Source of the DNA: Chrysemys picta bellii
Taxonomy: Eukaryota > Chordata > Testudines > Emydidae
Assembly (NCBI RefSeq): GCF_011386835.1
Contig: NC_088800.1
Span: 18,624,572-18,688,571 of the forward strand
Length of the DNA stretch: 64,000 nt
Reading direction: 5' to 3'
Shown here piece after piece: positions 5,501-49,300 of the stretch; the stretch's first letter is position 1, and the number at the start of each line of letters is the position of its first letter. The notes under the pieces were generated by a model. It saw only the letters and a program-made list of their open reading frames with translations. It did no database searches and was not told the origin of the DNA. Both the position numbers and the translations under genes were made by a program.

Positions 5501-5812
5501 AACAACAAGGAGTCTGGTGGCACCTTAAAGACTAACAGATTTATTTGGGCATAAGCTTTCGTGAGTAAAAACCTCACTTCTTCGGATGCATAGAGTGAAA
5601 GTTACAGATGCAGGCTTTATATACTGACACATGGAGAGCAGGGAGTTACTTCGCAAGTTTATAATGCCTGCATCTGTAACTTTCACTCTATGCATCCGAA
5701 GAAGTGAGATTTTTACTCACGAAAGCTTATGCCCAAATAAATCTGTTAGTCTTTAAGGTGCCACCAGACTCCTCGTTGTTTTTGTAGATACAGACTAACA
5801 CGGCTACCCCCT
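5501..5812 (+). mobile_element. Palindromic Penelope-like tail unit
   Basis: 312 bp made of an inverted left arm and a direct right arm of the same PLE tail, ending in a cagactaacacggctacc-type terminus. A perfect 14-bp TSD (aatatttgttcata) flanks the whole unit at 5487-5500 and 5813-5826, so it inserted as one piece. The right arm carries a hairpin flanked by CCGAAGAA (5697-5704) and GAAAGC (from 5721), resembling a hammerhead core. Confidence 0.85.
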
Positions 5813-6295
5813 AATATTTGTTCATATTTCCCATTATCTCCTCTAGCACATCATCATAAAGGGTCAGTATACACAACTCATGCAGATTTACCTCCATGAA
5901 TGCTATACATGAGGATAGTTTAAAAGACTCTCCCACTCTCCACCCCAACATACACACATGGACCAATGGCAATAAACTGCTAATGAGTTGCCCTTCCCCG
6001 CCAGATTCCAGTTTTAGGGGTCCCACTCAGTACGTGGCATTTTTCCATCCTTACTATAGCTTGGATATAAAAACCAAAAACCCAACACACTTGTGCCAGC
6101 CTGTACAGTAACTGGCTTCCCCAGACACACAGCAGCGTGTACCACATACTGGATGGCAGGATTCAGACCCAAGCTAATGCCAGGGTATTTGAGCTTTAAT
6201 CTAGCTCCCATTTGAGTTAATGGGAGTCATTCCCCAGAGTTGAATCAGGTTGTATAAGTAAAAATAGCAAGCAGAGAAGCTGAGGGAGAAAATTG

Positions 6296-46300: not shown

Positions 46301-49300
46301 CATGGGCAGAGCGCCTCCAGGCAACAGAACCAGTGCGATTGTGCTAAAGAGGGGGCGGAATGTGGAGAGAGATGCAGACGGTGCACACTCCTATGTGGCA
46401 GGTGGAGGGGACAGGCAAGGACAGTATGGGCGGGCAAGGGTGGATTGGGCATTTGCCACTTCCTGGATCCTTCCAGTCACTCTCTGTGGGAGATGGGAGA
46501 AAGGAAAGACATGGTGTAAGAGCCAGCATAAGCGTCTACAACCACTGCATGTGGCCCAGCTACTCAGGCCAGGTGCTGTGCAGAGGGTTTCTGCCACAGT
46601 ATTTCAGAACAAAATCCAGGTAAATTCTGATAGTCTGACTTAATGAACACCAGCAACGGTGCATTACCTTGGTGATGGGTGCTTCAATAGTCATGGAATG
46701 TATCCTGGCCATGGAGGAGTGTCGCCTCTGTGAACTGCCTGTGCAGAAGAGAAAGCAAAATTAGCACTCTGATTAAAATGACAATGCACGACATCCACTT
46801 AGCCAAGAATTCCTCGTTTGCCATGACCTTCAGGACCACCTATAACAGCATGCATATGCACACTTGTCCAGCTATGCTGATAAGGATGCCCACATAGACG
46901 CGCTCTGAATCACCAACAACACAGAACAGAGATAAGCAGCCATAATGGCCTGGCAACATAGTTGCTGTTTTTATATTTTAAATGTTTTATAAAATGTTCA
47001 GCCACCAGTGCCATATATATGTTGTCTTTGGGGGGGAGAAGACCTGACAAGACACAATGAGTCAGATCCTCAGCTGGTGTAAATCAGTGTAGGTTCTTTG
47101 AACTTAGTGCAGCGATGATGAGCTATGCCAACTGAGGTTCTGGCCCATAACAACTGATGTCATTAATCAGGGACGGGAAAACATACATCTTGTGTGTCAA
47201 TTAGCAATTTTTGGCAGCAAAGGCCAAACTAGGCTACTTCCTGTTCTGTAACCTAGTAAGATGTGGCTACTTCTCGGCTACTCTTTGTGCTGATGCCGAG
47301 CACATCTTCAGCATCAGAATCCAGGCTATTTTTGTAGCAATGGTCAGTCTGGTGAAAATTAGAAGTAAATCTGTTACTTCAAATTTTCACCAGACTTTGA
47401 CCATTGCCTAGAATGTACTGATACATGTTTTAACAGAAGCTTTATAAACACCAGCAAAACCCTGCAGTATGTGAACTACCTACTAAGGTGAAGGGTGATA
47501 TGCCATGATGAAGTGCAACTCCCTGATGTATGACACAACATAGTGCAAATAAAACAAACAACAACTAAGAAGAAATTTAACTTTGACTTTAATGGGAAGA
47601 GTAGATAGGGAAACTACAACAAACCCCAATACTTGTGGGGGCCCCAGAATCTGCTACCTTTACTAATGATGAAGAGTAACTTACTTTGGGAGTAGCTCTA
47701 TTGAATTCTATGGGATTACTCATGACAGTAAGTGCTACCCAACGTTAGTAAGGGTGGCAGAATCTGGCCTTTCATTTCTAAAGTTTTCAAAAAAATAGGA
47801 TAAAAAAAATTGCTCAGAGGCAAAACACATGGGGTAGTTGCATAAATATGAAATATTCATGTCTTGAGGGTTTTTAAAAGCCATGTGAAAAATATACAAA
47901 CATCCACTTATCTAACATACCATCACTTCCTCGTGAGGTTGTGGATCTGACATCAAGCGATCCTTTCCTCCTATCTTTGTGTCGGCAAGTCTGAATATCT
48001 GTGGAGACATCAGTGTTATACAATGACTGCAACAAAGGCTCTTCCCAGATTATATGTTAAAGGAAACTAAACATAGGTAAAAGCTTGATAGTAGCGGAGC
48101 AACATGGATAATGCTACAGTTGGTTGGAAAACAGCTTCTTAGAACTGTATTCACACTGGCCTTGCCATGGATGCTCCCACGGCACTCTCTTTGGATGCTG
48201 CTCTTGCCTCAAGCAAAGACGCAAGAGTAAATGGCCTTTGTGTAGAGGATCTCTGGGTATGTCTACACTACCCGCCGGATTGGCAGGTAGCGATTGATCC
48301 AGCAGGGATCGATTTATCGCATCTAGTCTAGACACGATAAATTGACCCCCGAGCCCTCTCCCGTCGACTCCTGTACTCCAGCGCTGCGAGAGGTGCAAGC
48401 AGAGTCGACGGGGAAGCGGCAGCAGACTCACCACGGTGAAGACACCACGGTAAGTCGATCTAAGTACGTCGACTTCAGCTACGTTATTCACTTAGATCGA
48501 TTCCCCCCCCCCCCAGTGTAGACCAGGGCTAAGAGCATGTAGAGTCCTCTCTCACATTGGTGCAGAGTGGCGGTTCAGCCACAGCGCTGCCAGTAATAGA
48601 GCTGTACAAGTCAGAGGGGCCCCTGAACACCCCTTATGGATCTACAAAGACAAGGTGGGTGAGGTTAATATGTTCTACTGGACCAGCTTCTGTTGGTGAG
48701 AGAGACAAGCTTTCGAGCTACACAGAGCTCTTCCTCAGGTCCTATGGGTCTACACAGCGGTGAAGCCGCTGACCACTTCCCTATCCCACCCCTACCAACC
48801 CCTCAAACTCTGAGCGGAGTCTGCTTTGTCTTTGAGGCTACCCCCTGCACTAGATGTGTTTAGGGCCGGAGGCAGACAGCATTTGGCTCTAAGGCAAGAT
48901 AGAAACTTCAGTAGACAAGAGTTCTCTGTTGTCTGAATATTTCACATCTTAGAAAATCACCGTTAAATGGCTTCATGCAAGAGTTGTTGGACTGTACAAT
49001 TAATAATAATATTTAGTAAGCCAACCTTGACATAGGTATAGACATTACCTGCTTAATCCCCAGAACAGTCTATGGGAGGGAGTCTGTTCTCCCTGTTTTA
49101 CAGATGGGGGAACTGAAAGGCAGATACAGTGACTTAAGTCAATAGGGCAATTTCTGAGCTCACTTAGGCCCATGCAGTCCCATTGCATGTGGGTTAATTA
49201 GCACAGAAAGTGGTTACACAAGGATAACTGAGGACAGGGTTTGGCCCATTGCTTGTTTTTTAGTTTTAATTGACTCATACCAGATAAGTGTTTGTCAGTG

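Follow-up and report, generated by a model that had tools for sequence, protein, structure and literature searches.

Minimal type I hammerheads of Penelope-like elements (PLEs), found in very many copies, have reportedly been described by Cervera and De la Pena in 2014 and by Lunse, Weinberg and Breaker in 2017 as lying in the pLTR, having no real helix III and being proposed to act as dimers. The motif analysed here, in a window of 64,000 nucleotides from the turtle Chrysemys picta bellii and across its genome, resembles these ribozymes in its pLTR place, the lack of a real helix III, the proposed dimer action and the abundance of copies, but differs from them in an extra A between A9 and G10.1 and, in some subfamilies, a C at position 4. 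Two reviews likewise describe PLE hammerheads that lack helix III and may work as dimers (PMC6155905, PMC7761336). The closest reptile case is PAc, a Poseidon PLE of Anolis carolinensis which, like the turtle elements, carries a GIY-YIG endonuclease and whose hammerhead was seen to cleave only with protein; its ORF begins at stem II, with the cut 26 bp inside the frame, whereas in one turtle tandem locus (L074) the ATG stands 97 nt after the predicted cut (PMC11167929). The same extra A between A9 and G10.1 occurs in the plus-strand hammerhead of the viroid CChMVd, where it brings a moderate loss of rate, although that is a viroid ribozyme and the turtle motif belongs to a retroelement (PMC3705267). 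The hammerheads of axolotl and newt retrozymes also have a short helix III and are efficient only as dimers, but they lie in short tandem non-autonomous repeats rather than in the pLTRs of a coding PLE (PMC7229834). The literature searched contained no report of turtle PLE hammerheads; since the original minimal-hammerhead surveys lay outside its scope, we do not claim a first report.

Our results make it quite likely that the motif is a minimal hammerhead of the PLE type in turtle PLE lineages, with a loopless stem III of the dimer kind, identity being meant here as fold plus descent. Its overall kind is already known, with two deviations in the core. The supported fold consists of stem I (GCAU/AUGC), CYGANGA followed by one extra A, stem II and GAAAGCUU, with a predicted cut after UU. 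In the established hammerhead nomenclature, the letters read GCAU (2.4-2.1), C3 Y4 G5 A6 N7 G8 A9, the extra A, and stem II from G10.1-C11.1; 3' of stem II follow G12 A13 A14 A15.1 G15.2 C16.2 U16.1 U17, the predicted cut and AUGC (1.1-1.4). The window holds six copies:

5692..5732, plus strand: copy 1; stem I GCAT 5692-5695 / ATGC 5729-5732; core CCGAAGA 5696-5702, extra A 5703; stem-loop II 5704-5720 (GTGAG/CTCAC); GAAAGCTT 5721-5728, with the predicted cut after 5728; lies in a head-to-head foldback and loses its predicted fold in +/-150 nt of context
5549..5589, minus strand: copy 2, inverted partner of copy 1; C3 at 5585, stem-loop II 5577-5561, cut predicted after 5553; loses its predicted fold within the foldback
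25749..25791, plus strand: copy 3; core CTGAAGA 25753-25759, extra A; bulged stem-loop II 25761-25779; GAAAGCTT 25780-25787; predicted fold lost in foldback context
25985..26024, plus strand: copy 4, in a B-type tail; CCGAAGA core at 25989-25995 followed by the extra A; stem-loop II 25997-26012 (GTGGGC/GCCCAC); GAAAGCTT 26013-26020; stem I AGCAT/ATGCT; predicted fold lost in foldback context
33973..34013, plus strand: copy 5, 3' of a fragmentary PLE ORF; CTGAAGA core at 33977-33983 followed by the extra A; stem-loop II 33985-34001; GAAAGCTT 34002-34009
48703..48742, minus strand: copy 6, from family C, a second PLE lineage; GGAC/GTCT as stem I; CTGAGGA core followed by the extra A; stem-loop II 48730-48715 (GAGCT/AGCTC); GAAAGCTT 48714-48707

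All five sites listed in the initial annotation were present on checking the sequence, that at 25753-25783 (plus strand) with TGAAA in place of CGAAA, and a sixth, 5585-5555 on the minus strand, had gone unlisted. The core expression C(T/C)GANGAA...CGAAAGC matched exactly at five places (5696-5726, 25989-26018 and 33977-34007 on the plus strand, 48738-48709 and 5585-5555 on the minus strand); shuffled windows averaged 0.005 matches. A structural descriptor (stems I and II of 3 bp or more each, the core, an optional extra base before stem II, GAAA and, ahead of H17, a self-complementary step) matched the window six times; 200 dinucleotide shuffles, with both strands searched, gave no match. The same annotation had stems that differ but stay paired: for stem II this held completely for GUGAG/CUCAC in the two A-type copies at 5696 and 5585, GUGGGC/GCCCAC at 25989 and GAGCU/AGCUC at 48738, but not at 33977 and 25753, where the letters are GUGAGG..ACCCA and RNAfold pairs them with a bulged A. 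Stem I (GCAU/AUGC, or GGAC/GUCU at 48738), absent from that annotation, is present. Minimum free energy folds of short window segments kept stems I and II in all six, with z-scores against shuffles of -2.44, -2.50, -1.74, +0.64, -1.88 and -1.29; the value of +0.64 belongs to copy 6, at 48738, which folds no better than shuffles. In the canonical core (PMC3088659), C3 U4 G5 A6 N7 G8 A9 stands directly before stem II, and here the window copies deviate, with the extra A in 6/6 and C4 in 3/6, as had been noticed before; both deviations have viroid precedents. The other half of that core, G12 A13 A14 A15.1 with U16.1 H17, is canonical, and GAAAGCUU occurs in all six.

Placement in PLEs is anchored by an open frame and the tail that follows it:

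33208..33870, plus strand: C-terminal part of a PLE ORF (GIY-YIG endonuclease), the open frame of a 5'-truncated copy
34010..34066, plus strand: PLE tail 3' of the predicted cut, common to other A-type copies

The frame contains a GIY-YIG domain (PF01541, E 1.8e-6), as expected of a PLE; its best protein match, at 79% identity over 76% of the query, is from a sea turtle, and the named ones among its 41 matches are from turtles and lizards. A genome search for PLEs gave 47,088 first-look candidates; 150 of them were scored, and 20 ORF-anchored stretches were hand-picked down the ranking of these 150 matches, all of the A kind and chosen regardless of the motif (L073 for two matches 2.9 kb apart, L074 and L075 for long frames). 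The motif lay downstream of the ORF match in 19 of the 20, L083 being the one without it, when the core expression was allowed up to 2+1 substitutions; 15 of the 19 needed none. Stem I had 4/4 pairs in 18 of these 19, and stem II 5/5 pairs in 7, 4/5 in 11 and 3/5 in 1. The motif is thus located in the tail or pLTR of PLEs with a GIY-YIG ORF, which bears out its earlier assignment to retroelement, specifically Penelope-like, tails. In L073 and L074, direct motifs 2,939 nt apart flank a 910-codon open frame whose first ATG is codon 10, the arrangement of a pLTR; in L074, the tail seen at 34010..34066 runs on to the ORF start of the next unit, with 97 nt from the predicted cut through the tail to the ATG. 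Such flanking motifs were found in two of the three long-frame copies examined, the third (L075) being a 5'-truncated copy with the motif downstream only. None of five other ORF-bearing loci (L038-L042) had an intact direct motif upstream; an inverted upstream motif was present in L038, L041 (damaged) and L042, the last also carrying, on the same strand, a truncated A-type tail at 3033. Six contigs (C180, C183, C218, C760, C2323 and C3554) share one 644-residue open frame and one score in their PLE matches and may represent a recent or a duplicated array. In viral contigs, a protein scan found no relative and two motif patterns had no matches; a short motif pattern matched seven contigs (L001-L007).

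Genome-wide, the pattern CTGANGAAN{8,20}CGAAAGC occurs at 27,815 places in the 2.37-Gb genome, against 36 for the reversed pattern. Four types of stem-loop were counted with positions 4 and 5 left free, and these positions were then tallied by hand in the first 100 places listed of each type, which cover the first contigs only:

A stem-loop, GTGAGGTTYTTACYCAC: 17,532 places genome-wide; among the first 100 listed, copies with a TTTTT loop (n=29) have 22 CCGA, 5 CTGA, 1 CCAA and 1 CGGA, and copies with a TTCTT loop (n=71) have 70 CTGA and 1 CCAA
B stem-loop, GTGGGYTNTAGCCCAC: 7,745 places genome-wide; 60 CCGA, 31 CTGA, 7 CCAA and 2 other in the first 100 listed
D stem-loop, GTGGGYATTCACCCAC: 5,148 places genome-wide; 67 CTGA, 29 CCGA, 3 CCAA and 1 other in the first 100 listed
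C stem-loop, GAGCTCTGTGTAGCTC: 133 places genome-wide; 84 CTGA, 2 CCGA, 4 CCAA and 10 other in the first 100 listed

Among the matches listed, C4 is a mark of the A subfamily with the TTTTT loop and of B. The three long-frame loci have C4 and belong to the TTTTT subfamily or come nearest to it. Since CCGA holds a CpG, some CTGA may be decay. CTGA copies in which the second base of stem II is not T numbered 1,484, against 3 for the reversed pattern, and were mostly family C among the matches listed. Copies lacking the extra A are very rare, with 13 having a GTG..CAC stem and 1 a GAG..CTC stem in the whole genome. Both core deviations, present in thousands of copies, offer a natural test of how much drift a hammerhead core tolerates.

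These deviations also bear on the strongest alternative, that the motif is a hammerhead by descent only, carried by an intact-frame lineage that has lost catalysis through C4 and the extra A, its stem-loop being copied passively or serving as an RNA landmark for the element protein. The dominance of C4 in the TTTTT subfamily of A (22/29) and in B (60/100), among the matches listed, speaks for such a relic, as do the foldbacks that destroy the predicted fold and the Anolis PAc element, in which hammerhead mutants had no effect on insertion in vitro and no reads started or ended at the cut site (PMC11167929). Nevertheless, the long-frame copies retain both stems I and II and the remaining core letters, and U4 is kept elsewhere among the matches listed (70/71 in the TTCTT subfamily of A, 67/100 in D and 84/100 in C). 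Moreover, a viroid hammerhead with U4C was less active in vitro and yet allowed infectivity (PMC3088659). We regard the relic as possible but somewhat doubtful. That the family still cuts we put at about even odds, so that the preferred reading, a PLE-type minimal hammerhead, overlaps with the relic. Cutting would probably be slow or protein-assisted, because stem I has about 4 bp, the extra A separates A9 from G10.1 and the intact-frame subfamily has C4. A bolder version of the same reading, which we think unlikely, is that turtle PLEs carry a distinct hammerhead subclass, with the extra A10 fixed in two deeply split lineages and U4 changed to C in the intact-frame lineage, whose core would be nearly silent alone and switched on by dimerisation together with the element protein, cutting only when the RNA is bound.

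The two lineages in question, A/B/D and C, were compared in an alignment of 85 rows, reduced to 65 by removal of 20 exact duplicates (38 rows of A/B/D and 27 of C). In these 65 copies, 89.1% of the cells in stems I and II were paired against 68.1% in shuffled alignments, 126 cells against 56.5 were changed on both sides, and the covariation score was 0.533 against 0.216, with 0 of 500 shuffles as high and at most 0.151 when the pairing was slid. The two of the five measures that are least misled by relatedness were not above shuffles, with 6 pairs changed on both sides against a shuffled mean of 6.4 and 16 further pair types against 17.2; the covariation signal is therefore chiefly one deep split, that between A/B/D and C. 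Across this split, 5 of the 9 stem pairs (three in stem I, two in stem II) have exchanged letters yet pair in both lineages, so that stems I and II are kept by compensation and the initial annotation was right about a hammerhead-like motif with covarying stems, within the limit of mainly one split. In C the fourth stem II pair reads C-G; half of A/B/D has G-C or A-U there, and 19 of the 38 A/B/D rows have A.C. The two consensus sequences are identical over all 16 core and AGCUU positions; the search pattern imposed 13 of these on rows selected with it, N7, U16.1 and H17 being free; U16.1 itself is present in 38/38 A/B/D rows and 22/27 C rows. A stem I of at least 4 bp was found in 28 of 30 A/B/D loci and 13 of 27 family C loci. 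The copy at 48738 had been ascribed to another element family, and it does belong to the family C lineage of PLEs, whose ORF is 33-37% identical to that of A over stretches of at least 100 residues and 28-54% over shorter pieces. From the last aligned codon to the motif, the distance is about 170 nt in L051 and L096 and about 130 nt in L038. L096, chosen by its ORF, has a family C motif downstream of it; in L097, a stretch next to a family C ORF fragment, the motif is absent.

Around the unpaired hammerhead core, both helices have exchanged letters that still pair, which argues against a reading without RNA structure, in which the motif would be conserved DNA of PLE ends, used for protein binding or integration and merely hammerhead-like, and so does its placement in direct pLTR repeats, as for published PLE hammerheads. 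Although the motif lies near the ends of tail-only copies and 38 of the first 100 listed A-type places fall in minus-plus pairs at most 120 bp apart, both of which would suit a DNA signal, we consider this reading very unlikely.

In stem III, the fold departs from what had been proposed. The motif does not close stem III within one molecule, having the palindrome AGCU alone, without a loop. As read from the sequence, stem III is this palindrome only, a diminished helix of the minimal PLE type that would permit a dimer; a second copy would be needed, and two copies could share it. The initial annotation had named an Rfam covariance search, with lack of a hit counting against the motif, and indeed no Rfam hammerhead model matched the window at its gathering score or appeared among the 52 matches at E<=10, a miss that is expected where stem III has no loop. 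Its own model, a type I hammerhead acting as a monomer with a short stem III GC-UUAU-GC and a cut after GCUC, is most improbable: the pairing is possible in copy 4, the outer pair holds in 65/65 rows counting G-U and the C-G pair in 41/65, but no pair is changed on both sides, the C-G pair is broken in 24/65, A-type copies have C and not U16.1 in that register, and the AUGC it consumes actually forms the 3' side of stem I, where RNAfold has it paired with GCAU.

Under the favoured reading of a dimer-type hammerhead, the two motifs of a tandem pLTR-ORF-pLTR transcript would pair through the palindrome AGCU (A15.1 G15.2 C16.2 U16.1) to form a common stem III, and each paired motif would cut after H17 (GCUU^AUGC). 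These cuts would release a unit-length RNA, of 2,939 nt in two tandem loci, with a 97-nt leader to the first ATG in L074. With the wrong stem III corrected, a very common turtle repeat thus has a concrete fold and a predicted cut site, and the tandem copies provide a place to test what PLE hammerheads do.

Most copies in the window are probably incapable of cutting, to judge from folding in context. With +/-150 nt of flanking sequence, copies 1-4 had a predicted fold probability of 0.00 and minimum free energies of -151 to -187 kcal/mol; the fold is lost because the elements are head-to-head foldbacks, and these four copies are probably inactive. Copies 5 and 6 are old remnants, with stem II probabilities of 0.58 and 0.67 and stem I probabilities of 0.11 and 0.04 in the same context. 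In L073, stem II reached 0.96 upstream and 0.44 downstream, and stem I 0.03 and 0.00. Stem I ranged from 0.00 to 0.34 across the ten copies folded in this way, low values that would fit a weak, dimer- or protein-dependent action.

The foldbacks include two inverted tails that face window copies:

25660..25752, minus strand: inverted decayed tail with a broken hammerhead core, facing copy 3
25910..25978, minus strand: inverted tail starting at the 3' strand of stem II, facing copy 4

The latter and another tail, at 6777-6844, both start with the 3' strand of stem II, as though the hairpin had halted copying. Head-to-head tail joins were observed in the window at 5549-5732, 25660-25843 and 25910-26079, and also in L042. 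Among the first 100 listed of the 17,532 A-type places, adjacent motifs at most 120 bp apart were minus-plus in 19 cases, plus-minus in none and plus-plus in 1, and the minus-plus spacers measured 3-46 nt, with 6 nt occurring four times. Head-to-head palindromic junctions are described for rotifer PLEs (PMC3846280), and extension of both target strands in vitro for Anolis PAc (PMC11167929).

Rfam matches to microRNA families near 25654-26044 were below gathering scores and fit the foldback hairpins, and they were rejected. Further sub-threshold matches to mir-1756, mir-1677 and mir-1803, on both strands at 32314-32404, 47058-47147, 17176-17250 and 22206-22280, are perhaps short inverted-repeat elements. 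A weak match to the UnaL2 LINE 3' element lies at 34870-34923, also sub-threshold (28.8 bits, gathering 55). Short motif-less pieces at 22289-22377, 36579-36625 and 36753-36792 resemble the two tail families.
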